Of a stretch of 64,000 nt of DNA, positions 4,799 to 17,643 are shown in pieces. This DNA is from Candidatus Latescibacterota bacterium (GTDB taxonomy: Bacteria > Latescibacterota > UBA2968 > UBA8231). Position 1 is the first letter of the stretch. Each line of letters begins with the position of its first letter. The stretch is from contig SLHA01000048.1 in assembly GCA_007136405.1 (NCBI GenBank), positions 1 through 64,000 of the forward strand, given 5' to 3'. The translations under genes and the position numbers were made by a program. A model generated the notes under the pieces. The model did not search any database. It was not told the origin of the DNA and saw only the letters and a list, made by a program, of their open reading frames with translations.

Positions 4799-5410
4799 AT
4801 GGCAATAGTACCTGTGGTTATCGAACAATCCGGACGGGGTGAACGCGCGTACGACATCTTCTCGCGCCTCCTGAAAGAACGCATCGTGTTCCTCGGCTCG
4901 GTCATCGACGACAATGAAGCCAATGTCGTCATCGCTCAGCTCCTTTTTCTGGCCTCAGAGGATCCCAATAAAGACATTTCCCTGTATATCAACAGTCCGG
5001 GAGGCAGCCTGACCGCCGGACTGGCGTTGTACGATACCATGCAGCACATCCCCTGCGACGTAGCCACGCTTTGCGTCGGTCAGGCCTTCAGCATGAGCGC
5101 TCTGCTGCTTGCGGGCGGCACCCGGGGCAAGCGCCACGCGCTACCCCATGCCAGGCTCATGCTGCATCAACCCTGGGGCGGGATCTCCGGCCAGGCCAGC
5201 GACATCGAGATCCATGCCCGGGAGATCATGAACTGGAAGAAACGCCTCACCCAGATCCTGGTGACGGACACAGGCCAGACGTTTGAACGGGTTCAGGCCG
5301 CCACGGAGCGGGACTGGTTCCTGGATGCTCAGGAGGCTAAGGAGTTCGGTCTGATCGACAGCATCCTGACCAACGCCAGCTCGATCGGCTCGGATTCGCC
5401 GCCGGCGTGA
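4799..5410 (+). CDS. clpP: ATP-dependent Clp protease proteolytic subunit ClpP
   Basis: Serine peptidase that forms the tetradecameric barrel used by ClpX or ClpA. At 203 aa it has normal length. The triad is intact: Ser98 in [15 protein letters not shown] (Phe replaces the usual second Ala of GQAAS), His123 in [10 protein letters not shown] and Asp172 in ATERDWF. There is no long propeptide. A consensus promoter lies 44 nt upstream. clpX is not adjacent but lies 2.3 kb away on the other strand. The stop codon directly abuts the stop of the convergent GGDEF gene, with no spacer. Confidence 0.96.
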
Positions 5411-6289
5411 TCAAGTATGCACTACCCTGTTGCGTCCTCGATGCTTGGCCTGGTACAGGCGTCGATCGGCGCGACGGACCAGCTCCTCGGCAGACTCCGG
5501 TGCATCCGCGGGATAGGTAGCCACACCGATGCTCACGGTGATACGGGCTTCGGTGTGGTCCTGGCAAAAGACGTGATCTGCCACCGCCGTACGGATCCTC
5601 TCCCCCAGCATCCACGCCCCACTCCTGTCCGTATGCGGTAGCAGCAAGGCGAATTCCTCACCGCCATATCGGGTCAGGGTGTCCTCAAGGCGTACCTGGC
5701 CACGGATCAACCTGCCCAGCTGGCGCAGGACGGCGTCACCGAAACGGTGACCGTGGCGGTCATTGATCAGTTTGAAGTAGTCGATATCCAGAATCGCGAA
5801 GCTGAAGGGATAGTGATAACGCCAGGCTTCCGCCAGTTGCGCCAGCAGGTGTGACTCCATGTAGCGGCGGTTGTAGACCCCCGTAGTCTGATCGACCACC
5901 GCATCTTCAGACAGCTGATCCAGGCGTCGCTTCAGGCGCAACTGCACCTTGATACGGGTCTTGAGCTCGGTGATTCGAACGTCAAGGGAGAGAAGGTCAT
6001 TCGCGCCCATATCCAGGTATCTCAGCGCTTCCGGGCTCGTTGCTGGCACCAGCACGATGACCGGAACATCCCTGGCCACCGCCGTCGCCAGCAGGCTTCG
6101 CAGGCGCTGAGGTGTGTCATGATCGGCACGCACATCGACCAGCATCACATCGGCCTGCAGGGCATCCGGAGAAACCGGCTCCGGTAAAGATTCCAGGATG
6201 GTGACTATAGCATCGGCGCCTACCTGCAGGGCATCGTATACTCTTTGCTGCAGTGTAGCATCCTGGGATACCAATACGAGTCTGTTCAT
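5411..6289 (-). CDS. Diguanylate cyclase with N-terminal receiver-like domain
   Basis: Predicted to make c-di-GMP from two GTP. Residues 1-120 resemble a receiver domain, with a possible phospho-acceptor Asp52 in VMLVDVR; typical acidic-pocket residues at the N-terminus are poor, so it may be a degenerate receiver. The C-terminal GGDEF domain has an intact active site (GGEEF, 209-213) and a product-inhibition I-site RLED (200-203) exactly five residues before it, as in PleD-type enzymes. No membrane segment. It overlaps the upstream epmA-like gene by 4 nt (ATGA), indicating translational coupling. Confidence 0.9.
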   Translation of the reverse strand: MNRLVLVSQDATLQQRVYDALQVGADAIVTILESLPEPVSPDALQADVMLVDVRADHDTPQRLRSLLATAVARDVPVIVLVPATSPEALRYLDMGANDLLSLDVRITELKTRIKVQLRLKRRLDQLSEDAVVDQTTGVYNRRYMESHLLAQLAEAWRYHYPFSFAILDIDYFKLINDRHGHRFGDAVLRQLGRLIRGQVRLEDTLTRYGGEEFALLLPHTDRSGAWMLGERIRTAVADHVFCQDHTEARITVSIGVATYPADAPESAEELVRRADRRLYQAKHRGRNRVVHT

Positions 6290-7638
6290 GGATCACCCCC
6301 CCCCAGGTCCGGGGGGAAAGCCACGACCTCGTCGATGCTGGTCGCTCCGGTACACAGCATCACCAGGCGATCGACTCCCATGGCCATGCCACCCGCAGGT
6401 GGCATGCCACATTGCAGCATGTGCAGGAAATCCACATCCGTGTTCACGGGGGGCAGACCAAAGGCCCTCCGGCGTTGCGCCTCCCGGCAAAAACGCTCCT
6501 CTTGTTCCGCGGCATCGTTGAGCTCGCTGTAACCATTGGCCAGTTCCATTCCCGCGATATAGGCTTCGGCGCGCTCTGCCAGGCCGCTGCAGCCGGGCTT
6601 GCGACGGGCCAGCGCACCCAATGCCACCGGGTAGTCCAGCAGGAATACGGCCCCCAGCTCCTTCAGACCAGGCTCGACCCTGTCGACCAGCACCTTGTGA
6701 AAGGCGTCTTCCCAACTATCCTGTTCAGTGATGCTCCGGTACCCGTGGGCCGCTGCGGCATGGCGCAGCGAGGTCGCGTCCGGGCAGGCTTGCAGTGAGA
6801 TGCCGGCATAGCGGCTATACGCCTCAGTTACCGTCAGCCGCGGCCATGGTGCGGCAAGCTCCACACGCTGGCCGCCATGCTCCAGCCAGTTCCGGCCGGA
6901 GACCTGATGACACACATACGCCACCAGTTTCTCCACGTCCTCCATGACCGCGTGGTAGTCAGCGTAGGCCCGGTACCATTCGAGCATGGTGAACTCCGGG
7001 AGATGGCAGGGCGAGCGTTCGCCGTTCCGAAAGCACCGAACCAGCTGAAAAATCCGCTCGAAACCAGCGCTGAGGAGCCGTTTCATGTGGTGCTCGGGCG
7101 AGGCAATCAGGACTCCGCGCAGGCGCTTGGCCGGTAGCCGTAACTCGCTCTCGAAGAAGTCGATATGTCCCTCATTGCCGGTTCCACTGACAAACTGGGG
7201 GGTTTCCACCTCCTGGAAACCCTGGTTACGGAAGTAGTCCCTGATGGCTGCCATGATCCGGGCGCGCACGAACAGCCGTTGCCGGAGCAGCCCGTCATGG
7301 CGCCGGAAACGCGTCCAGTCCGATGCAGCCTTCAAGGCGCCATGACCCGAAACCAACACCTGAATCGAATGCACATGCAACTGCCCGCCGCGCGCATAGC
7401 CGGTTAGCGCCGCTACATCTCCGGCTGCCGCGCCGCAGAGGCTGCGGTACCTGAAACGAATTTCGCCCGTTTCATCGGCAAGAATTCCCTCCCCCGTGGC
7501 GCACTGCAGGAGACGTCCTAAAAGGACTACATCCGGCGCATCCGCGGGAATCCGGCCGGCTCCATGGGTTCGGCGCGGCCAGGCTTCTGCCGGTCGACAT
7601 GGATCAGCCTGGAAACTCAGACGCGTCAATTCTTGCAC
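6286..7638 (-). CDS. epmA: EpmA/GenX-type class II lysyl-tRNA synthetase paralogue with N-terminal OB-like region
   Basis: EpmA attaches beta-lysine to a conserved lysine of elongation factor P. The class II catalytic core is present, with motif 2 FRNGERSPCHLPEFTMLEWY and motif 3 GGMAMGVDRLVML. Ala in GMAMG matches EpmA (GVALG), whereas true LysRS has Gly there. Unlike the 325-aa E. coli EpmA, this 450-aa protein keeps about 110 extra N-terminal residues with an OB-fold look (GRLLQCATGEGILADETG). GTG 7638 is preferred because AGGAG lies 5 nt before it; the upstream TTG falls in a terminator. EF-P and epmB are not in the window. A short LysRS variant is the main alternative. Confidence 0.78.
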   Translation of the reverse strand: MQELTRLSFQADPCRPAEAWPRRTHGAGRIPADAPDVVLLGRLLQCATGEGILADETGEIRFRYRSLCGAAAGDVAALTGYARGGQLHVHSIQVLVSGHGALKAASDWTRFRRHDGLLRQRLFVRARIMAAIRDYFRNQGFQEVETPQFVSGTGNEGHIDFFESELRLPAKRLRGVLIASPEHHMKRLLSAGFERIFQLVRCFRNGERSPCHLPEFTMLEWYRAYADYHAVMEDVEKLVAYVCHQVSGRNWLEHGGQRVELAAPWPRLTVTEAYSRYAGISLQACPDATSLRHAAAAHGYRSITEQDSWEDAFHKVLVDRVEPGLKELGAVFLLDYPVALGALARRKPGCSGLAERAEAYIAGMELANGYSELNDAAEQEERFCREAQRRRAFGLPPVNTDVDFLHMLQCGMPPAGGMAMGVDRLVMLCTGATSIDEVVAFPPDLGGGDP

Positions 7639-7656
7639 ACCGATACTCCTCGAATG

Positions 7657-7714
7657 CAAAAACGGCCCCGGCGAATGGACCTGCGTCGGCAGGCTCCGCC
7701 CGTGCGGGCCGTTT
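7657..7714 (-). terminator. Branched intrinsic terminator after clpX
   Basis: On the minus strand AAACGGCCC pairs with GGGCCGTTT, closed around a GC-rich loop that contains a second stem (CCTGC/GCAGG), followed by a T-run. It lies 45 nt after the clpX stop and just before the epmA-like start. Confidence 0.6.
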
Positions 7715-7759
7715 CCGGCACCAGTGGTGTCAGTAAGGCATTGGGTAGCAGCGGTACGA

Positions 7760-8989
7760 TCAGGCGCGTTTTTTACGGCTGACGTAGGTGGGCGGGCCCT
7801 TGGCTTCCACGAAATCCCTGGTTATGACACACTCCTGCACATCATCACGCGCCGGCAGCTCATACATGATCTGGAACATGGTCGTTTCCATCACCGCACG
7901 CAGACCGCGCGCTCCCATGGCCTTCTTACGAGCCAGTTCGACGACGTATTCCAGCGCCTCAGGCTCGAAACGCAGCTTCATACCGTCCATCTCGAAGAGC
8001 TTCTGGTATTGCTTGACCAACGCGTTCCTGGGCTCGACCAGTATGGCCATCATGGCGTCAGCGCTCAACGGATGCAGAGTGCTGACCACCGGTAACCGGC
8101 CGATCAGCTCCGGAATGAGACCGTATTGGATCAGGTCTTCCGGTTGCACCCGGGCCAGGGCACGACCCATCTCGAGCGCCTCTGCGCCGGCGACGTTGGC
8201 GCCAAACCCCATGGCCCGATGCCCGATGCGCTGGTTGATGATCCGTTCCAGTCCGTCAAATGCGCCACCGCAGATGAAGAGTATATTGCGGGTGTTGATC
8301 TGAACCAGAGGCTGTTCCGGGTGTTTACGCCCCCCCTTGGGAGGCACGCCGGCAACGGTACCCTCCAGGATCTTGAGCAGTTCCTGTTGAACGCCTTCAC
8401 CGGATACGTCCCGGGTGATGGACGGATTGCCGGACTTCCGTGCGACTTTGTCGAGCTCGTCAATGAACAGAATGCCGCGTTCCGCCTGACTGACGTCATA
8501 ATCCGCCGCCTGGAGTATACGCACCAATATGCTCTCTACATCCTCGCCGACATAACCGGCTTCCGTCAGAACCGTGGCATCGACGATGGCAAACGGCACC
8601 TTGAGAATGGAGGCAAGGCTCTCCGCCAACAGCGTTTTACCGGTTCCAGTGGGCCCGATCAGCAGGATGTTACTCTTGGTGAGTTCTACATCACTCAGGC
8701 CGGAATAGACCCGCTTGTAATGATTGTACACCGCTACTGAGAGCGACTTTTTGGCCCGCTCCTGACCGATGACATGCTGGTCGAGATGCTTCTTGATGTC
8801 CGCCGGTTTGGGCAGCGGAGCTCCATCCAGATTGGGTTCTTGCCTGTCCTCTGCCTCCAGAACCTCGTTGCACAGTCCGACGCACTCATTGCAGATATGC
8901 ACCGAAGGCCCCTGAATGATCTTTTCTACCTGATCGACTCCCTTGCCGCAGAACGAGCAAGCAAACGAGTTGTGCGGCTTCTTGAGCAT
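7760..8989 (-). CDS. clpX: ATP-dependent Clp protease ATP-binding subunit ClpX
   Basis: AAA+ unfoldase that feeds substrates to ClpP. At 409 aa it has the N-terminal zinc-binding domain (CSFCGKG ... ICNECV), Walker [13 protein letters not shown], Walker [10 protein letters not shown] and the GYVGEDVES pore-loop region. ATG 8989 is preceded by GAGGAGC. It lies 24 nt after a cold-shock-domain gene on the same strand and is probably cotranscribed with it. It is separated from clpP by two genes and sits on the opposite strand, unlike the usual clpP-clpX pair. Confidence 0.96.
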
Positions 8990-9013
8990 GCTCCTCGGTG
9001 TTCCTTTCCCGTG

Positions 9014-9625
9014 TCAACTCCCCGGCTCGATGTCTACAGATGCTCCCTCCGCTTCCTCACCAGCCGCGACATCCTGCTCCGGCTCCCCTGCCTGCGGTTC
9101 CCTGTTGAAGGCTTCTGCACCAGCCTGTGCCGCTGTCCTGGCTTGACCAGAGTCAGCCTCCTGACCTCCCTTCATGACATTGATGGCCTGAAAACCCTTG
9201 GCAGTGCGGGTGACCATAAACTCGACTTCGTCTCCCTGAGCAAGGCTGCGATCCCAGGAAGAGATGTCCCGCCAGTGGACGAAGACGTCGATATGGCTGT
9301 CCGTGGAGATAAATCCGTAGCCTTTGTCATTGTTGAACCACTTGACGACACCCGTAACCCAGGTGTTTTCGACCAGCGTGTCTCCTGCGGCTACGCCGGT
9401 TTCCGGACTGGCAGGGGTTGGCTTGCCGCTTTCGGCTTCCAGGATCTGACTGTGAATCAAGTCCCGCGTCTTGCTGCCGCCATCTGTACTCTCCAGAAGA
9501 AGCTCCAGTCCGGTGATCAAACCGATGACGTAGGACGAGTCTGCTCCGTACAACCGCCGGGCCTGGGCGATTTTCCCGGCCAGGCCGGAGATCGTGTCTG
9601 CTTCTATAAATATAGAACTGCCCAA
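9014..9625 (-). CDS. Cold-shock-domain protein with extra N-terminal domain and acidic tail
   Basis: About 203 aa. The centre (residues about 90-150) is a cold-shock domain: VTGVVKWFNNDKGYGFIS with RNP1 KGYGFI and RNP2 VFVHW. Ahead of it is an 85-residue domain I do not recognise (GLAGKIAQARRLYGADSSYV), and behind it a Glu/Ala-rich tail. Single CSD proteins are about 70 aa, so this is a composite. Likely a single-strand nucleic-acid binder. The start is uncertain: TTG 9625 is best spaced from AGGAGG; TTG 9634 is the alternative. A consensus promoter about 120 nt upstream gives a long leader, as in many cold-shock genes. Confidence 0.8.
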   Translation of the reverse strand: MGSSIFIEADTISGLAGKIAQARRLYGADSSYVIGLITGLELLLESTDGGSKTRDLIHSQILEAESGKPTPASPETGVAAGDTLVENTWVTGVVKWFNNDKGYGFISTDSHIDVFVHWRDISSWDRSLAQGDEVEFMVTRTAKGFQAINVMKGGQEADSGQARTAAQAGAEAFNREPQAGEPEQDVAAGEEAEGASVDIEPGS

Positions 9626-9745
9626 GGATAACAACCCTCCTGTGTACCGCTACACTGATGATCCGGAAACGCCGAACCGGCTGTTCATTGGCCTGCACCG
9701 GGACCTGGGCGTTCCGAGTTATCTGAGGAAACCCATTGGATACAT

Positions 9746-9774
9746 TATTAAGCACATCCTCCGTAATCTGTCAA
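9746..9774 (-). promoter_or_regulatory. Sigma-70 promoter for the cold-shock-domain gene
   Basis: Minus strand TTGACA (9774-9769), 17-nt spacer, TTAATA (9751-9746). The predicted transcript starts near 9739, leaving a leader of about 115 nt before the start codon. Confidence 0.65.
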
Positions 9775-9777
9775 CAA

Positions 9778-11202
9778 TTACGTTCTGTATCCTTTAAGTC
9801 CGGCATACAAAGTCTGGGCGCTGACTTTTGCGATGCCGAATAACGGGACGGCGATTAGCATGCCCACGATGCCCATCAGCTGGCTACCCACCATGACGGC
9901 GCCAAGGACTGCCAATGGATGCATCTTGACGCTGCGTGCTACGATGGTAGGCTGTACCAGGAAATTGTCAACGCCCTGCACGAACAGATACAGAACCACG
10001 ATCTGGCCCACCACTCCGATCCCTCCACCCGTGGCTACCGTCACTGCCGTGGCGGATATGATGCCGATGAGGGGGCCCAGAAAGGGGATCATGTTGGCGA
10101 TACCGGCCAGCAGCCCCAACGGAACAGCATAGTCCACCCCGATGATCTGCAGACCGATGATGCCCAGCGTGGCAACCACGCTGGTGGCCAGCAGTTGTCC
10201 ACGGAGGTATCCGCCGATCTGCTGGCTGATCTGGTGAAGCAGATCCAGACACAATTCGAAGTAGGCGTTGGGGACCAGCTCGATCACGCCGCGCGTCATG
10301 GCGTTGCCTTCCCGCAGGAAGAAAAACGCGATGAAAGGAACCAGTACGACGAAGGTCAAACCGGAGAACAGCCCGCCGAGTAATTCGGTGGTGCCGATCA
10401 GCAGGCGTTCGCTCAACACACTGCGACCGTGCAAGGCGACCAGCCGGCTCATGTCGAAATCTTCACCCAGGAACCGGTCCACGAGAGGCTGGATCGGGGT
10501 CAAACTCTGACTCAGATTCGTCAGCAGATTGGGTCCGGCCGTGCCGAAGTCCACCGCCCGCGCACCGACCAGCAGGTTTCCCACCTGCTCCGCCTGGTCC
10601 TCGGTTGCGGGATCGACTCCGGCCTTCTCCAGACCACCGTTACCACCCAAGGCCACCCGGGTCTGCTGCTGCCCTCCCTCTGTCTTGATGACCAGCATGG
10701 CGTACGCACCGGAGGTGTCCGGCGGAGTGAAGCGCAGACGAACCGTCCGGCTGGTGCCAGCCTCGAGTTCGAGGATTCCGTCCGTGGGATAGTCGATTCG
10801 AAATTCCTGCGCATCGTTCTCCAACACCAGACGTCCGACCAGAGGTTCGTTACCCAGATTGGTCAGGGAGAGTTCGCGTTCGGTGTATTCCCGGCGCAGG
10901 AGACGTTCACCCAGTTCGACGATCTCCCCCGTCAGACGGCCACCGGCCGTGACCGCCACCAGACCGACGACGACGAACACCGTCGCGAATATGATCAGGA
11001 TACTGGCTGTCCGCTCCAATCCACTGGCTTCCATGCGATCCACCAGAGGGGTCAGGATATAGGCCAGCACGAAACCCAGAAGAAACGGAGCCAGAACACC
11101 GCGGAATGCATATACCAGCCCGATGGCCGCCAACAGCCCCAACACGGCGAGTGTGATTCGAACAGGCGCTCCACCGGGGAAACCTGTGTCCAGCTGGCTC
11201 AT
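9778..11202 (-). CDS. AI-2E/PerM-family permease carrying an Ig-like (ASH/Hydin-type) insert
   Basis: Multi-pass inner-membrane protein of the AI-2E transporter superfamily. N-terminal segments (VLGLLAAIGLVYAF, LAPFLLGFVLAYILTPLVD) and the C-terminal core (GLLAGIANMIPFLGPLIG) fit the family. Between TM3 and the core, around residues 105-190, lies a soluble beta-rich stretch with the ASH/Hydin pattern: LTNLGNEPLVGRL, then LEAGTSRTVRLRFTPPDTSG. That is unusual for this family and would face outside the cytoplasm. ATG 11202 has GGAG 6 nt upstream; GTG 11211 overlapping the previous stop is possible. It follows the cNMP-binding gene without a gap. Substrate is unknown. Confidence 0.85.
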   Translation of the reverse strand: MSQLDTGFPGGAPVRITLAVLGLLAAIGLVYAFRGVLAPFLLGFVLAYILTPLVDRMEASGLERTASILIIFATVFVVVGLVAVTAGGRLTGEIVELGERLLRREYTERELSLTNLGNEPLVGRLVLENDAQEFRIDYPTDGILELEAGTSRTVRLRFTPPDTSGAYAMLVIKTEGGQQQTRVALGGNGGLEKAGVDPATEDQAEQVGNLLVGARAVDFGTAGPNLLTNLSQSLTPIQPLVDRFLGEDFDMSRLVALHGRSVLSERLLIGTTELLGGLFSGLTFVVLVPFIAFFFLREGNAMTRGVIELVPNAYFELCLDLLHQISQQIGGYLRGQLLATSVVATLGIIGLQIIGVDYAVPLGLLAGIANMIPFLGPLIGIISATAVTVATGGGIGVVGQIVVLYLFVQGVDNFLVQPTIVARSVKMHPLAVLGAVMVGSQLMGIVGMLIAVPLFGIAKVSAQTLYAGLKGYRT

Positions 11203-11207
11203 CGGAT

Positions 11208-11768
11208 TCACTCCGGACCGGTTTGATCCAGGCCGGCGCTCTGCTCCTGCTCGCTTTCCAGCTTTCGCACCCGCAGGCGGGCCTCTTTGAGCAGCCGGTT
11301 GGTGTGGCGCAGGCGCACGGAGATGATCTGCGACAGCCGCATTACGATATGCAGACCGCGCCGAGGGTTTTTCTCGATCAGATTGAGCAGATCGGGACGA
11401 AAAAAGCCAACCAACTCGCAGTTGTCTGTCGCCACTGCGGTCGCCGTCCTTGGGGTCTGATCCAGCAATGCCTGTTCCCCGAAAAAATCACCGGGCTGCA
11501 GATCAGCCAGGAGCTGCTCGCCACCATCCTCAGTCTGGTGGCTTACCCTGACCCGGCCGGAAAGGATGACGAACATTCCGGCTCCCATTTCCCCCTCCCG
11601 CACGATAACTTCTCCGGAATTGTACCTGCGGCGATAGAGTATGGCCTGCAGTTTTCGCAGTTCGCGCAGGCTCAGATCCTGGAAGATGGGCACCCGGTTG
11701 ATGGTCTCGTACACGGAGTCCTCAGGGTCCTCTCTACGCTTGAACAGGTTGCTCCAGATGGGATCCAC
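11208..11768 (-). CDS. Cyclic-nucleotide-binding domain protein (no DNA-binding domain)
   Basis: About 186 aa. One CRP-type beta-roll covers residues about 25-140 (IFQDLSLRELRKLQAILYRR, GEVIVREGEMGAGMFVILSG, GDFFGEQALLDQTPRTATAVA). The phosphate-binding cassette FFGEQALL...RTATA keeps the Glu and Arg used for cNMP. A helical or coiled C-terminus replaces the HTH of CRP, so it is a sensor or partner rather than a transcription factor. GTG 11768 with AAGGAG is favoured; a GTG/ATG further upstream is possible. It is coupled to the permease downstream, which suggests that the two work together. Confidence 0.85.
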   Translation of the reverse strand: MDPIWSNLFKRREDPEDSVYETINRVPIFQDLSLRELRKLQAILYRRRYNSGEVIVREGEMGAGMFVILSGRVRVSHQTEDGGEQLLADLQPGDFFGEQALLDQTPRTATAVATDNCELVGFFRPDLLNLIEKNPRRGLHIVMRLSQIISVRLRHTNRLLKEARLRVRKLESEQEQSAGLDQTGPE

Positions 11769-11878
11769 ACCAGTCTCCTTGCCGGGTCGACAGCCCCATA
11801 GACGGGCCAAAGACAAGCGACCCGTTTACCCGGAAAGGGCCGCTCTCCTCACAGTCCCTGGCTGTGCGCCACCCTGCT

Positions 11879-12208
11879 TCAAGTTGCCAGCACTTCTTCC
11901 AACTTGGCCTGAATCTGTTGTTTGGGCACGGCTCCGATCACCTGCCCGGCGACCTTGCCGTCCTTGAAAATCAGGAGGGTCGGGATGCTGCGAATGCCGA
12001 ACTGGGCCGCGTACTTCTGTGACTCGTCGACGTCCATCTTGCGAACCTTGACTCTGCCGCTGTATTCCTGGGCCAGTTCCTCCACGATCGGTGCGACCAT
12101 GCGGCACGGGCCACACCAGGCCGCCCAGAAGTCCACCAGAACCGGGGTATCTGATTCCAACACTTCGGCAGCGAAATTTTCATCATTGACAGCTAACGGT
12201 TCACTCAT
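11879..12208 (-). CDS. trxA: Thioredoxin
   Basis: Cytoplasmic dithiol oxidoreductase, 109 aa. The active site is WCGPC in VDFWAAWCGPCRMVAPI, and the cis-Pro loop is IRSIPTLLIF. The start is ATG 12208, since an in-frame upstream extension lacks family similarity and contains the promoter. A near-perfect promoter overlaps the end of holA, so it can be transcribed alone. Confidence 0.96.
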   Translation of the reverse strand: MSEPLAVNDENFAAEVLESDTPVLVDFWAAWCGPCRMVAPIVEELAQEYSGRVKVRKMDVDESQKYAAQFGIRSIPTLLIFKDGKVAGQVIGAVPKQQIQAKLEEVLAT

Positions 12209-12286
12209 GGGAAACCTCATTGGTAGGCAGTGGGTATTTCTGCAGAAGCCGCTTCCGCGGCCTGCCGTCAGTACCGGTATTTGCCG

Positions 12287-12315
12287 ATAATACCGAGGCA
12301 GTTCAGGAGTGTCAA
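12287..12315 (-). promoter_or_regulatory. Strong sigma-70 promoter for trxA
   Basis: Minus strand TTGACA (12315-12310), 17-nt spacer, TATTAT (12292-12287). It overlaps the last codons of holA, giving an about 70-nt leader. Confidence 0.8.
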
Positions 12316-13358
12316 GCCCGGCGGTATAGAGCCTGCACCGGGCAGAGATCAAGGATCAGCAACTCCAGTACCAACATGCCCTGACGCCGTCCCAGCGATT
12401 TGAGACGCGAATCGGCCTGCAACAAGGCGCCGATGGCCCGCCACGTGGCTTCCGGTGAACGTAGTTGCGCTTGCTCCATGTAGCCGTTGACGAAAAAAGT
12501 GGATATGCTCAGCTCCCTGGCGATGATCCTGGCGTCGCGCATGCCCCGGTCCATAAGGGACCGCGCCTGCAACAGCATGCGGTAATGCCGGGCCAGCATG
12601 GCGACGATGTGGATCGGTTGTTCGCCATGAGCGACCAACTGTCGTGCCAGCGCCAGGGAGCGCGCCATGTCTCCCTGACCCGTAGCATCTGCCAGAGCGA
12701 AGACGCTCGAACTGGCGGTGGCGCCTGTCACCTGGCGAACTGCATCCGGGGTGATGCATCCCCCCGCTCCGACAAAGGTCAGCGCTTTCTCGATTTCCGC
12801 CGCCAGGACCCGCAGGTTGCGGCCGATCAACAGGGCGAGCATGTCCGCTGCTGCCGGTTCGATACTGCCTCCCGCACGCCGGGCCCAGGACTGAATCCAT
12901 CCGGGCAGCTTTTCCTGGTAGGGTGTCCGGAACTCCACCACAAGCCCCTCGCGGTCCAGCTGCTGAAACAGCCGGCGGCGCATATCTACCTTGGTAGCGG
13001 TGGCGATGACTATCGTGGTCTCCATGGGGTGGTCCACCATGGCTTCCAGCTGCCGGCACGCCTCGGCGTTCAGGTGCTCGCAGCGGCGCAGCACCAGCAA
13101 ACGGTGTTGCGCCAACGTGGGGTAGGCGGCGTATACGGAGAGGATGTCACTGGCCTGAATATGCTCAGCGTCCAGGTAGTCTGTGTTGAAGTCCCGGGCG
13201 GCATCTGGCGCCAGCTGCTGTATCAACCAGTCCGTGGCGCGCTCACGGTCGAACCCCTCTTCGCCATACAGCAGGTAGAATCCCGCTTTTTTTCCCGCTT
13301 GTACGTGCGCCACCAGGTCAGCGGCAGACAGGCGTCGGCGTGCACTGCGCTTGCTCAC
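12312..13358 (-). CDS. holA: DNA polymerase III delta subunit
   Basis: Clamp-loader delta subunit that opens the beta clamp. The 348-aa product matches family length. It begins at GTG 13358, whose GTGA overlaps the stop of the small upstream gene. Recognisable parts are LYGEEGFDRERATDWL near the N-terminus, ARDFNTDYLDAE, and the C-terminal helical collar region (HYRMLLQARSLMDRG). A longer Arg-rich upstream extension in this frame is not protein-like and was discarded. Confidence 0.92.
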   Translation of the reverse strand: MSKRSARRRLSAADLVAHVQAGKKAGFYLLYGEEGFDRERATDWLIQQLAPDAARDFNTDYLDAEHIQASDILSVYAAYPTLAQHRLLVLRRCEHLNAEACRQLEAMVDHPMETTIVIATATKVDMRRRLFQQLDREGLVVEFRTPYQEKLPGWIQSWARRAGGSIEPAAADMLALLIGRNLRVLAAEIEKALTFVGAGGCITPDAVRQVTGATASSSVFALADATGQGDMARSLALARQLVAHGEQPIHIVAMLARHYRMLLQARSLMDRGMRDARIIARELSISTFFVNGYMEQAQLRSPEATWRAIGALLQADSRLKSLGRRQGMLVLELLILDLCPVQALYRRA

Positions 13359-13552
13359 GGGTCGTTTTCCCCGGGGGCGTCGACCTCGGTGAATTCGGCG
13401 TCGACGACGTTGGAACGGTCGATGGGAGAGGACCGGTGTCCGGCGGGTGCCGAATGTGCGTCGTCGCGCCCACCGTGTTGCCGCAGGCGGGCGCCTTTCC
13501 ATGCCTGGTACAATGCGTATATCGCTACGCACCAAGCGATCAGCCTGATCAC
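13355..13552 (-). CDS. Small single-span membrane protein of unknown function
   Basis: About 65 aa: one hydrophobic helix (IRLIAWCVAIYALYQAW) followed by a polar tail ending in NVVDAEFTEVD. GTG 13552 is chosen because AGGAAAGG precedes it, whereas the upstream ATG 13597 sits inside a hairpin. It lies between purM and holA and is coupled to holA by a GTGA overlap. I do not recognise the family. Confidence 0.6.
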   Translation of the reverse strand: MIRLIAWCVAIYALYQAWKGARLRQHGGRDDAHSAPAGHRSSPIDRSNVVDAEFTEVDAPGENDP

Positions 13553-13579
13553 GGAGAAACCACCTTTCCTGACCGATGC

Positions 13580-13597
13580 ATGCCCCGGACGGGGCAT
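13580..13597 (-). terminator. Perfect 7-bp hairpin between purM and the small membrane gene
   Basis: ATGCCCC and GGGGCAT pair around a 4-nt loop, 10 nt after the purM stop. No T-run follows, so it is more likely an mRNA stability or attenuation element than an efficient terminator. Confidence 0.4.
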
Positions 13598-13606
13598 ACC
13601 GGAGGC

Positions 13607-14644
13607 TTATTCCAGCACAACGCTCTGGCCTTCATCAGGCTCTACTTCCCCGATCAAGCGAGCATCCTCGCCGTGGGCGCGCAGCCCCTCCAGGGCGGCT
13701 TCACTGTCGGCAGGATCCACGAAGAGAACGAGTCCCAACCCCATATTGAAGACGTGGAACATCTCATGTTCGTCAATCTTGCCGGTTTCCTGCAGAAAGT
13801 CAAATACCGGAGGAATACTCCAGGTGCCGCGCCGTAGGCGAGCGCACAGACCGGCTGGTACCACCCGCGGCAGGTTGTCCCACACCCCACCGCCGGTGAT
13901 GTGGGCGATACCTTTGATACTCACGGTCTGCAGCAGTGCCAGCACCGACTGGACATAGGACCGGTGCGGACGCAGCAATTCCTCGGTAACGGTATGCCCA
14001 GTGGCGCCAAGTGGATCATCCGGTTCCAGTCCGGCCATGGTGAAGACGATCCGTCGTGCCAGGCTGTACCCGTTGGTATGCAGACCGTCGGACGCCAGTC
14101 CGATGATGGCATCGCCACAGGTCACCGAACGGCCGTCGATGATACCCTCGCGATCGACGATACCCACGATGCTTCCGGCCAGATCGTATTCCCCCGGCCG
14201 GTAGAAATCCGGCATCTCCGCCGTCTCTCCTCCGATCAGCGCGCAGCCCACATTGCGGCAGCCGGTCGCCACACCGCGCACGATGGCCTCGACCACGTCC
14301 GGATCATGCACGCCCATGGCCAGATAGTCCATGAAGAAAAGAGGACGCGCTCCCTGGACCAGGATATCGTTGGCGCAGTGGTGCACGATATCGATCCCGA
14401 CCGTGTCGTGGCGGCCGCTGGCAAACGCCAGGCGCAGCTTGGTACCGACACCGTCTATACTGCTCACCAGGACAGGATCCCGGTATTCCTTCCACGGCGG
14501 TGCGAACATACCCCCAAAACCGCCCGGACCACCAACCACCTCCGGACCGAACGTGGTGCGGACCAGTTCCTTGATGGTCCGGGTGGAGCGATTGGCTGCC
14601 TCGATGTCGACCCCAGCCGCGGCGTACGCGCTTTTCTTTTCCAT
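13607..14644 (-). CDS. purM: Phosphoribosylformylglycinamidine cyclo-ligase (AIR synthetase)
   Basis: Fifth step of purine synthesis: ATP-dependent closure of FGAM to AIR. The 345 aa from ATG 14644 equals the standard length. Motifs: SAYAAAGVDIEAANR near the start, SSIDGVGTKLRLAF, DILVQGARPLFFMDYLA, GGETAEMPDFY and the late ITGGGVWDNLPRV. GGAGGGG lies upstream. The 220 nt ahead of it (to rnr) holds no convincing gene. Confidence 0.96.
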   Translation of the reverse strand: MEKKSAYAAAGVDIEAANRSTRTIKELVRTTFGPEVVGGPGGFGGMFAPPWKEYRDPVLVSSIDGVGTKLRLAFASGRHDTVGIDIVHHCANDILVQGARPLFFMDYLAMGVHDPDVVEAIVRGVATGCRNVGCALIGGETAEMPDFYRPGEYDLAGSIVGIVDREGIIDGRSVTCGDAIIGLASDGLHTNGYSLARRIVFTMAGLEPDDPLGATGHTVTEELLRPHRSYVQSVLALLQTVSIKGIAHITGGGVWDNLPRVVPAGLCARLRRGTWSIPPVFDFLQETGKIDEHEMFHVFNMGLGLVLFVDPADSEAALEGLRAHGEDARLIGEVEPDEGQSVVLE

Positions 14645-14864
14645 CCGCCTGATCCCCTCCACAAATCAGCCGCGTTGCGCGCCGGCGTTGCGTTTTATGA
14701 GGCCGTACCAATCAGGGTATTCGGCCTGGTATTCCTTCCCATCCGCTACACCACTGCCGGCGTAGCGACCAAAGTACGACCGCGCCGCGGGCGGGTCAAT
14801 CGCAGGATCGCGGGTTCGAATCCGGAGGTTTATCCTGCCGGAAGCCATGACCGCGGCCAGGGCT

Positions 14865-17078
14865 TCAACGGCGACGCCGACGCGGCATGCGCCGGGGCTG
14901 TCCGCGTGTCTTGCGGGGGCGCGAAGAACGTTTACGGCGGAATGACGTACGGTGCGACGTACGATCATAGCTTGCCTCGATCAGCTGAAGGTCCATACGC
15001 TGCGCATTCCGGTCCACCCTGCTGATGCGCACCCGGACGGCAATTCCGGTGCGGATGCTCTGCCCGGTATCCAGGTTCGTCAACCTTTGTCGTCGAGGAT
15101 CGTACTCGAAATATCCATCCATCGCTCTCAATGAGCAGAACCCTTCCATCATGCTGCCAGTCAGCTCCACGAAAAATCCGTTCCGCAGCACGGCGGACAC
15201 CATACCGGAGCACTCCTCTCCCAGCCGTTGCTCCATGTAGCGCAGCTGCTTGAGCGCTCTGTACGTACGCTCTGCCGTTTCCGCGCGCTGCTCGCACTGC
15301 GAGCACCAACGGGCGAGCCATGACAGGTTCCCTGGCCGCTCCTCGCGACTGCTCGCATCCCGGTCCCGGCGCAGCGCGGCTTTGACCACCCGATGCACGA
15401 ACAGGTCCGGATATCGACGGATGGGTGCGGTAAAGTGCAGGTAGCGCGGCAACGCCAGACCATAGTGGCCCGCGTTCCGCTCGGCGTAGACAGCCCGGGT
15501 CATGGCCTGAAGCAGCCGTTTCTTCCACAGGTGCGCGTCTTCGCGCTCGGTGATACTGCTCAACCACTCCTGCAGCCGCTCCGGTTCAATCCGGGACTCG
15601 TGCCCGAGGGTCAGACTCGGGGCGGCCGCGGCCAGGCGGCGCAGTTTGGCCGCATCAGGGGGAGGATGCACGCGATATAGCACGGGCAGCTGGTGACGGG
15701 CGGCAAATTGCCCCACACACTCATTGGCCAGCAGCATGAATTCCTCGATGATGCGATGGCTGGCGAGCCGCGGCTGCCGACCCAACGCCAAGGGCATGCC
15801 GGCCGCGTCCAGGTCCACCCGGGGTTCGGGCAGATCGAGGTCCAGTGCGCCGCGTTGTTCCCGCGACAGCCGCAGACGAGCACTCAGTTCATCCATCAGC
15901 CGCAACAGCACCGTCCACGGCGCCGCGGCACCGCCCGCCCCGTCCAGGGCCGTCTGAACCTGCTGGTAGTCCAGGCGGGCCGCACTCCGGATCACGGATT
16001 CGGTGATTGTGAAAGCCTTGATCCGGCCGTCCGGGTCCAGATCGATCAGAACGGACACGCTCAACCGGTCTTTGCCGCACTGCAGCGAACACGCGCCAGC
16101 TGCCAGGTCATCGGGCAGCATGTGCACGACATGATCCAGCAGGTACACGCTGCACCCCCGTCTGCAAGCCTCGAGGTCCAGCTCTGTTCCGGGCTGTACG
16201 AAATGACTCACATCGGCTATGTGGACACCCAGATGATAGCCGCCTTTCGGCGAACGCTGCAAAGAGACGGCGTCATCGAAGTCTCGCGCTCCTGGCGGGT
16301 CCACCGTCACACAACATTGCGCCCGAAGGTCCAGACGCTGCGACAGCGAGGATGCAACCGGATCCATGCCGACCGAGCGGGCCACGGCCTGGGCGGCGGC
16401 GGGGTAGTCAACCGGCAGATCGAAACGGTGCACCACCGCGGCGAAGTCCAGGGCAGGATCGTCACCGGAGCCCAGATGCTGCACGATCCGCCCCTTCAGG
16501 CCATCGAATCCCCAGCCTCTGTCCGTGACCTGGACGACGACCCGCGCCCCCGGGTCCATACTGTCCGGCAAGCGGTCCCGCAGGTACACATCGCGCTGTA
16601 TTGCCGGGTCGTCCACTTCCACTGCGGCCCGATCACCACGCCGGACCAGCGTGCCCACCAGTGTGCGCGCTGCCGGACGAACCACGCTGACGATGCGCCC
16701 TTCCGGTCCTCGCCCGTCCGCGTCCTGGCCGGTAATCTCAGCCTGCACTTCATCACCATCGATGGCCGCGCCCAACGCCCCCCTGGGGATGTACAGGTCG
16801 GCCTGCTGACCGGCAGATACGACAAAACCGAAGCCGCGAGGATGAACCCTGAGTTGGCCTGCGACAAGATGATGCTCCCCTGCCAGAGCAAAGCGATTGG
16901 AACGAAGGCGAACGAGCAGCCCTTCGGCCTCGAGTTCCCGTACCAGCTGCCGAAAGCTCCGGTAAGACCGTGGCGCCACACCGATCTCGCGGGCCAGATC
17001 CTTCATGCGGCACGCCTGGAACCCAGGTTGGCGCATGTGGCGCAGAAGCTGTTCCCGCGTGACGTCGTCCGGGGGCAT
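14865..17078 (-). CDS. rnr: Ribonuclease R (RNB-family 3'-5' exoribonuclease)
   Basis: Processive exoribonuclease for structured RNA and mRNA turnover, about 737 aa from ATG 17078. Order: N-terminal winged-helix-like and cold-shock domains (HPRGFGFVV; YIPRG), RNB domain with the metal-site motif DPPGARDFDDAVSL and HIADVSHFV, then the TAPIRRYPDLFVHR signature, a C-terminal S1 domain and a strongly basic Arg/Lys tail. An intrinsic terminator at 17103-17137 lies upstream of this ATG, which rules out the longer in-frame start at 17240. Confidence 0.95.
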   Translation of the reverse strand: MPPDDVTREQLLRHMRQPGFQACRMKDLAREIGVAPRSYRSFRQLVRELEAEGLLVRLRSNRFALAGEHHLVAGQLRVHPRGFGFVVSAGQQADLYIPRGALGAAIDGDEVQAEITGQDADGRGPEGRIVSVVRPAARTLVGTLVRRGDRAAVEVDDPAIQRDVYLRDRLPDSMDPGARVVVQVTDRGWGFDGLKGRIVQHLGSGDDPALDFAAVVHRFDLPVDYPAAAQAVARSVGMDPVASSLSQRLDLRAQCCVTVDPPGARDFDDAVSLQRSPKGGYHLGVHIADVSHFVQPGTELDLEACRRGCSVYLLDHVVHMLPDDLAAGACSLQCGKDRLSVSVLIDLDPDGRIKAFTITESVIRSAARLDYQQVQTALDGAGGAAAPWTVLLRLMDELSARLRLSREQRGALDLDLPEPRVDLDAAGMPLALGRQPRLASHRIIEEFMLLANECVGQFAARHQLPVLYRVHPPPDAAKLRRLAAAAPSLTLGHESRIEPERLQEWLSSITEREDAHLWKKRLLQAMTRAVYAERNAGHYGLALPRYLHFTAPIRRYPDLFVHRVVKAALRRDRDASSREERPGNLSWLARWCSQCEQRAETAERTYRALKQLRYMEQRLGEECSGMVSAVLRNGFFVELTGSMMEGFCSLRAMDGYFEYDPRRQRLTNLDTGQSIRTGIAVRVRISRVDRNAQRMDLQLIEASYDRTSHRTSFRRKRSSRPRKTRGQPRRMPRRRRR

Positions 17079-17102
17079 GCGTGTAATACTCCGTGTGGGC
17101 AT

Positions 17103-17137
17103 AAAAAAGCAGCTCCCGGCCCTTGCCGGGGCTGCTT
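17103..17137 (-). terminator. Rho-independent terminator after the 17.2-kb lipoprotein gene
   Basis: Minus strand AAGCAGC-CCCGGC pairs with GCCGGG-(T)-GCTGCTT around a 4-nt loop, followed by six T. It separates the upstream lipoprotein gene from rnr. Confidence 0.85.
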
Positions 17138-17187
17138 GCCAGATCGTTTCCCTTCCTATGCCAAAATGCTTGATCGGGCCCGGATTG

Positions 17188-17643
17188 TCAATCCGTGCTA
17201 CCCGGCCAGACCAGCGGGAATGATTGAGGGATGCCCTCACGCTCCCACATGCGGGCGAAATTGTTGATCACCACGGTCATCTCACTGCCAACGACCCGCA
17301 ACGCGCGCTCCGCGTTAGGGACGAATGTGGGAAAATCCGGTTCCACCAGTCTACGCAGTGCTTCGTCCAGCGAGCGAATCATGGAATTGTGCAGAGCCCT
17401 GATGTGCTTGTTGGCCGGCATGCCGATGGCCGATATGCTGTCCCGGTATGCCGTCAGCACCTGGGCGACGTCCGCGGCTTTGTCTGCCATTCCCTCGGTA
17501 CGGAGATAATTCTTGTATTGCACGATGGTCCGGTTGAAATGGCTAAGTTCGTGCAATTGGTTCACATACGGTGTCAGTTCATCCGGTGCCTCTCCACATC
17601 CCCATACAACGCCCAGTATGAAAAGGAATCCAGCTCGCCGCAT
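17188..17643 (-). CDS. Putative lipoprotein of unknown function
   Basis: 151 aa. A short N-terminal hydrophobic stretch ends in VVWGCGEAPDE, a plausible but non-ideal lipobox (Trp at -2). The mature part is mostly helical and polar, with heptad-like segments (MIRSLDEALRRLVEP). No known domain recognised. It has its own promoter with an adjacent palindrome and its own terminator, so it is monocistronic. Confidence 0.7.
   Translation of the reverse strand: MRRAGFLFILGVVWGCGEAPDELTPYVNQLHELSHFNRTIVQYKNYLRTEGMADKAADVAQVLTAYRDSISAIGMPANKHIRALHNSMIRSLDEALRRLVEPDFPTFVPNAERALRVVGSEMTVVINNFARMWEREGIPQSFPLVWPGSTD

Follow-up and report, generated by a model that had tools for sequence, protein, structure and literature searches.

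Background

To our knowledge, the substrates and the regulation of most permeases of the AI-2E family (PF01594) are unsettled, and one member of the family, TqsA (7nb6), is reportedly a pentamer. The UPF0118 protein of H. andaensis, which belongs to the same family, is a Na+(Li+)/H+ antiporter, and the accessible part of the article describing it mentions no insert of the kind presented here (PMC7221264). ASH/PapD-like domains, for their part, are beta-sandwiches found in CEP192 (SPD-2), HYDIN, MSP proteins and fimbrial chaperones. A literature search, with most subscription journals outside its reach, returned nothing on an AI-2E transporter with an Ig-like insertion, nothing joining AI-2E/PF01594 with cyclic nucleotide-binding/PF00027 proteins, and nothing on a bacterial PapD-like ASH domain.

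Here we describe an AI-2E permease carrying such a domain, encoded in a stretch of 64,000 nucleotides of Candidatus Latescibacterota bacterium (contig SLHA01000048.1, positions 1 to 64,000, assembly GCA_007136405.1; hereafter the window). The features discussed below are the following.

9778..11202, reverse strand: whole gene of the AI-2E permease with the ASH insert, from its ATG start (an in-frame GTG lies 9 bases upstream, at 11211)
10897..11172, reverse strand: residues 14-105, helices 14-35, 37-62 and 67-105, read as TM1-TM3 plus a helical extension (DSSP of the model; N-terminal stretch of PF01594)
10633..10896, reverse strand: residues 106-193, core of the ASH domain, its strands taken as B to G (Pfam, models, structure matches)
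10594..10632, reverse strand: residues 194-206, linker, read as a new connection from strand G to strand A, as the model and the alignment suggest
10528..10593, reverse strand: residues 207-228, segment with the 'vdFG' motif of ASH domains, probably strand A in a displaced position (models, profile test, conservation)
9781..10527, reverse strand: residues 229-477, permease core, preceded by the remaining helical part of the native loop (Pfam, alignment, model)
11208..11816, reverse strand: gene of a 202-aa cyclic-nucleotide-binding (CNB) protein, directly upstream of the permease (PF00027, E 9.2e-28)

Results

An AI-2E permease with an additional domain

The permease frame (9778..11211, reverse strand) has no internal stop and codes for 477 amino acids from the GTG at 11211, or for 474 from the ATG at 11202. 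Since a GGAG is located 8 bases 5' of this ATG, the latter, already given as the start in the original prediction, is probably the true one; residues are nonetheless numbered here with the GTG as residue 1 (subtract 3 for the ATG form). The protein matches PF01594 with E 2.5e-52 (178.5 bits, for a curated cut-off of 34.3) in two stretches, the better one being residues 267-466, and the profile search of the genome likewise places the two stretches at 10936-11151 and 9814-10413, with the insert between them. An AlphaFold2 model of the whole permease, built from 46 sequences (mean pLDDT 89.8, pTM 0.80), superimposes on E. coli TqsA with Z 20.3 (rmsd 5.7, 328 residues aligned of 340) and on E. 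coli YdiK (7ot9) with Z 9.8 over 207 residues. The permease thus shares the PF01594 match and the fold with both proteins, and differs from them and from the AI-2E family by an extra domain of about 122 residues in the loop between TM3 and TM4. Two further AI-2E genes of the same genome (on contigs C137 and C72) are both without it. A sequencing error or frameshift was considered and rejected, given an open frame of 569 codons and relatives with the same architecture, and so was contamination, given the recurrence of the insert through the class of the window.

The insert has a predicted ASH/PapD-like fold

In the model, the helix 67-105 and the helix 229-248 are separated by seven strands (110-118, 124-131, 137-141, 146-149, 154-161, 169-177 and 183-190) and, after a linker, by three short ones (208-210, 213-215 and 219-221). 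The insert modelled alone (AlphaFold2, 12 sequences) has the same strands, with pLDDT 86.7 and pTM 0.80. The best match of residues 108-200 among solved structures is the SPD-2 domain of human CEP192 (7ptb; Z 9.5, rmsd 1.7, 87 residues; Z 9.3 for the insert modelled alone), followed by ciliary central-pair proteins, HYDIN (2e6j, Z 7.8), MSP proteins and fimbrial chaperones. Z values run from 9.5 to 6.8 over the ASH/PapD-like matches listed, a range in which Z below 8 may mean merely a common arrangement and Z of 8-9 for a beta-sandwich is modestly above unrelated models. At the sequence level, the insert matches Cep192_D4 (E 2.4e-5, residues 110-193), HYDIN_VesB (0.041) and, as a fragment, ASH (0.041), all below the curated cut-offs (best score 24.9 bits as a whole and 29.1 as a fragment, for a cut-off of 35.5); the insert of a relative (L044) passes the cut-off of HYDIN_VesB_CFA65-like_Ig, with 37.0 against 25.5 bits. 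Beyond residue 229 the permease realigns with the ordinary AI-2E loop, which has 52-76 residues in most of the best 80 AI-2E loci, so that we are dealing with an insertion and not with a replacement.

As modelled, then, an ASH/PapD-like beta-sandwich is lodged in the TM3-TM4 loop of an AI-2E permease. This agrees with the original prediction of an ASH/Hydin-type domain in the loop that joins the N-terminal helices to the core: structure prediction, which it had proposed as a check, gives a confident independent sandwich at 105-190, where the lack of one had been named as the refuting outcome. The profile search, also proposed there, leads to the right group of domains and passes a cut-off in L044, whereas the copy of the window stays under the cut-offs. 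The predicted extent of about 85 residues (105-190) does contain the sandwich but is too short, the module covering residues 106 to 228 or so (about 122 residues), including a linker and, at the C-terminal end, a strand segment, both absent from the original list.

A probable circular permutation

In a canonical ASH domain strand A comes first. In the model of the permease there is no strand between the helix 67-105 and the strand 110-118, strand A being absent from the N-terminus of the insert, and the Pfam profile is matched from its position 22 (of 112) onwards. A strand A pattern, LLVGARAVDFG, is present instead after strand G, behind the linker. The corresponding region is modelled with confidence, block pLDDT being 94 at 211-220 in the whole model and 94 at 210-219 in the insert alone, where the neighbouring blocks have 84-85.

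When the segment was put in front of the core and rescored with Pfam profiles (five sequences, one shuffled control each), the outcome was mixed: L038 gained 3.8 bits over its shuffled control and passed the cut-off, L044 gained 1.1 with one profile and scored lower with another, L036 improved with two profiles and lost score with another, and the window and L041 were about unchanged. For this reason we built a profile specific to the lineage and tested it on 21 homologues. This profile rests on 88 canonical domains from ASH proteins of related genomes (a few maybe counted twice, as L115 and L143 overlap), has 110 positions with strand A starting as 'elslspssldfG', and replaces an earlier one of 77 positions from which most of strand A was missing. 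With the 24 residues ending at 229 placed before the core, the score increased in all 21 homologues, which are related and not independent, by 1.2 to 9.6 bits (on average 5.1 over the core alone and 4.8 over shuffled segments), and the match then began at profile position 4-12 in place of 22-27. The same segment joined behind the core changed the score by just -1.1 to +1.9. Shuffled controls reached the score in at most 5 cases out of 200 for 16 homologues and in 15-24 out of 200 for the other five; when some 300 further stretches of 24 residues were taken from each protein, between 0 and 29 of them scored as well, with at least one doing so in 17 of 21. The gain obtained with the segment in front leads us to think that the domain is probably circularly permuted, strand A having moved to its C-terminal end. 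From model confidence and profile scores taken together, we infer that the displaced strand pairs with the sandwich.

Distribution, conservation and selection

The original prediction had suggested looking for the same insert in AI-2E homologues of relatives, and it is indeed there, in 39 of the 47 genomes examined in the class of the window (Latescibacterota), spread over four families. A single match spans the insert in 34 genomes (with a stop codon inside the match in G018, and cut off at 432 in G004), while in five (G010, G011, G036, G039 and G042) the insert comes in two pieces, wholly or partly covered. Seven of the 47 (G014, G038, G040, G041, G043, G044 and G045) yielded no insert-bearing copy: six of them contain just a shorter match to AI-2E, and the seventh has no match at the threshold used; G033, in which the permease is visible only from 269 on, is left out of both tallies. 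No insert was seen in the 17 genomes examined from the rest of the phylum, although nine of these do match AI-2E (E<=1e-60).

Searching the best 80 AI-2E loci, which come from named-species genomes and are not a census of all bacteria, with the lineage ASH profile gives 12 matches (E<=1.1e-4), all within L035-L047, the best match outside these carriers having E 1.8; in this count L042 is a truncated locus (E 1.1), and truncation or masking also affects L048 and L049. Several of the 80 loci are the same contigs as in the class genomes, so the two sets are not independent. Seven records that hold this gene (L036, L038, L040-L042, L045 and L049) are labelled Gemmatimonas, Gemmatimonadaceae, Gemmatimonadetes or Gemmatimonadota; those of them that figure in the tree group with Latescibacterota rows, so that the labels may be wrong.

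The insert is the part of the permease that changes fastest (16-32% identity to the window, for 43-65% in the membrane core). Its dN/dS is 0.11-0.40 in ten of 12 pairs, dS being saturated in the other two; that of the permease core is 0 to 0.25, and the insert exceeds the core in all ten measurable pairs, some of which are near saturation and some of which share one sequence. Residues N118, F161, P163, L173, G190, N191, F222, G223 and P227 are invariant or nearly so in the 21 homologues. These look like residues of the fold, N118, F161, P163, F222 and G223 standing at places typical of ASH; compared with a canonical ASH domain, the insert is distinguished by its C-terminal strand A segment after a linker and by being embedded in a multi-pass transporter.

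In a tree of the permease (a quick method, 82 rows, some long branches, insert columns left out), the insert carriers do not form one group: L050, which has no insert, falls beside the group of the window, inside the carriers (SH-aLRT 88, not starred). One must therefore assume that L050 lost the insert, that it was gained twice or that the tree is in error. Different longer TM3-TM4 loops also exist at this place, in three records, one of Bacteroidota and two of Bdellovibrionota, which make up a single clade. These loops (L062, residues 114-227 of a stop-to-stop frame; L071, 98-223; L095, 61-168) are mutually alike, and none has an ASH match at E<=1 to the lineage profile. Yet another long loop, unlike the ASH insert, is seen in a record labelled Competibacteraceae (L098, residues 104-225 of its frame).

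ASH repeats elsewhere in these genomes

Each of 30 genomes contains between 1 and 33 ASH matches (which may include the insert itself), and HYDIN-type matches number 6 in the genome of the window and up to 33 in relatives. One protein of the same genome (L115 2018-4861, reverse strand, contig C111), of 947 amino acids, reads by eye as a series of ASH-like repeats behind what looks like a signal sequence. Only a few residues separate its repeats, and the linker preceding residues 207-228 of the permease is longer than that (again by eye).

An upstream gene for a cyclic-nucleotide-binding protein

The stop codon of the CNB gene overlaps the permease GTG, leaving 5 bases before the permease ATG. 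The CNB protein has the cyclic-nucleotide-binding domain of Crp/Fnr-type transcription factors and not their C-terminal HTH (no HTH family was found in Pfam at E<=1). It shares with PF00027 proteins this domain, including the Glu and Arg of the binding motif, and differs from them in having no HTH match and in being paired with a transporter gene. A CNB homologue lies upstream, on the same strand and within 400 bases, in 30 of the best 80 AI-2E loci; several of the remaining 50 are cut near the permease (L042, L048 and L056 among them), and L049, at 427 bases, missed the limit. The pairing is found in 23 of 23 examined insert-bearing loci of relatives, a count that leaves out L013, L015, L016, L022, L026 and L028 (of 29). 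In 32 partner CNB proteins the Glu of the binding pocket is kept in 28 and the Arg in 31, two residues which we take to contact the nucleotide; the genome has one match to a class III cyclase.

The pairing also occurs without the insert, in L050, L051, L054, L055, L057-L063, L066, L069, L071, L072, L076, L077 and L086, and the paired rows of the tree bear about nine phylum labels, Latescibacterota, Calditrichota, Spirochaetota, Fibrobacterota, Glassiibacteriota, Thermodesulfobacteriota, Bdellovibrionota, Bacteroidota and KSB1, plus Gemmatimonadota. Two changes of state account for it on the permease tree, five rows of unknown state being left out. Its presence without the insert in other lineages, and in L050 within Latescibacterota, suggests that the CNB-permease pairing is older than the insert. 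A cyclic-nucleotide-binding protein described from Bdellovibrio is a different protein and, in the accessible part of the article, has HTH domains (PMC12750041).

As to the neighbourhood, positions 4799-17240 of the window carry genes that read as RNase R-like, HolA-like, thioredoxin-like, CNB, permease, cold-shock, ClpX-like, EpmA-like and ClpP-like, in an order largely kept in the close relatives L035-L042 (the names EpmA, HolA, PurM, RNase R, Trx, ClpX, ClpP and GGDEF were assigned by eye from translations). The cold-shock gene (9014-9634, reverse strand) codes for a 206-aa protein with the cold-shock domain at residues 94-155, while its N- and C-terminal parts carry no assignment; in seven loci (54-63% identity) it adjoins the permease. 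Contig C137, which bears another of the AI-2E paralogues of this genome, also has a CNB match close to that paralogue, on the opposite strand and cut by the edge of the locus (L001 2-451, forward strand).

Topology

The TM2/3 loop, the TM4/5 loop and the C-terminus are net positive (K+R > D+E) in both alignments (21 and 46 rows), and every part of the TM3/4 loop is net negative in both. With three helices before the insert, these charges support a location of the ASH domain outside the cytoplasm, if the N-terminus is inside. The original prediction that it faces outside is thus backed by the loop charges together with the helix count of the model, but two details do not fit the charge rule, namely R37 in the TM1/2 turn and an N-terminus that is slightly negative in the 21-row set. 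For the UPF0118 protein of H. andaensis, the accessible part of the published work reports a cytoplasmic N-terminus by PhoA fusion and places the C-terminus outside, the latter being something that the charges do not suggest here (PMC7221264).

Discussion

We propose, with a probability of roughly 0.53, that a circularly permuted ASH domain entered the extracytoplasmic TM3-TM4 loop of a CNB-paired AI-2E permease, where it would serve for docking on the outer side while the CNB protein regulates the transporter from within. The insertion would have taken place in the ancestor of one class of Latescibacterota, in a permease already paired with the CNB gene. The inserted domain would have the strand order B-C-C'-D-E-F-G, linker, A, so that both ends of the sandwich come to its A/B edge, and it could fit between two helices with the permease fold unbroken. 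Its source may have been a tandem ASH array cut out of register, running from strand B of a repeat to strand A of the following one, an origin with which the many ASH matches in these genomes fit well.

The rival that we take most seriously, and still regard as unlikely, also starts from such an array: the insert would be a plain ASH domain deprived of strand A, with the stump of a second one behind it; the sandwich would not be completed by residues 207-228, and there would be no permutation. The multi-repeat ASH proteins of these genomes are a plausible source for a cut-down array, the test with Pfam profiles was mixed, and profile scores alone cannot tell a displaced strand from a stump. 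It is harder to see why a stump should be modelled as strands with a block pLDDT well over that of its surroundings in the isolated domain, why F222, G223 and P227 should be nearly invariant while the rest of the insert diverges, or why the linker should be longer than the inter-repeat gaps of L115. Residues 207-228 could also complete the sandwich of a neighbouring protomer, a strand swap that would tie the ASH domains into a ring. Donor-strand exchange occurs in PapD-like systems, the length of the linker is variable and the relative TqsA is reportedly oligomeric; however, monomer models cannot tell a swap from pairing within the chain, nothing speaks positively for a swap, and we hold it to be improbable.

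Another possibility concerns function, or rather its absence: the insert may be a neutral spacer or decoration, without specific role, in a loop that tolerates insertions. Its fast divergence, the dN/dS that exceeds that of the core, the different longer loops of L062, L071 and L095 at the same place and the seven class genomes without an insert-bearing copy all go in this direction. We nevertheless judge it an unlikely account of a domain kept in 39 of 47 genomes and four families, at dN/dS values of 0.11-0.40 and with fold residues invariant or nearly so. Least probable of all, to our mind, is that the ASH domain lies in the cytoplasm and touches the CNB protein directly. The CNB gene does adjoin the permease in every insert-bearing locus examined, and its product is presumably cytoplasmic, but records with other phylum labels show the same pairing and no insert, the loop charges favour the outside, and the ASH-repeat protein L115 of the same genome begins with what appears, by eye, to be a signal sequence.

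Returning to the permuted domain on the outer face, five copies of it would crown this face if the permease were a pentamer like TqsA. We imagine it as a rigid docking module, which would hold the transporter to a partner in the envelope or steer access to the outer opening; a conserved fold with a variable surface argues for the docking of a protein rather than of a common small ligand. The original prediction, which names neither the probable permutation nor the CNB gene, had suggested that the domain could bind a partner or ligand. On the inner side, the CNB protein would report the level of cyclic nucleotide to the cytoplasmic face of the permease and so regulate transport, whatever substrate this may concern. 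A bolder version, in which a cytoplasmic CNB subunit gates the permease while a ring of five permuted, possibly strand-swapped, ASH domains couples this Latescibacterota transporter to its envelope partner, is one that we mention as a long shot.

Conclusion

Inserts of this sort are given wrong boundaries by a linear domain search. If the permutation is real, we have here a natural case in which the displacement of one strand lets a domain with distant ends sit inside a membrane protein, and capture from a tandem repeat out of register is perhaps a possible route for such inserts. The conserved pairing with a CNB gene offers a testable handle on the regulation of AI-2E permeases, also in Bdellovibrio relatives. 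Finally, if the bolder version of our proposal is true, a signal from inside and a contact on the outside would together control one AI-2E transporter under the command of a second messenger.
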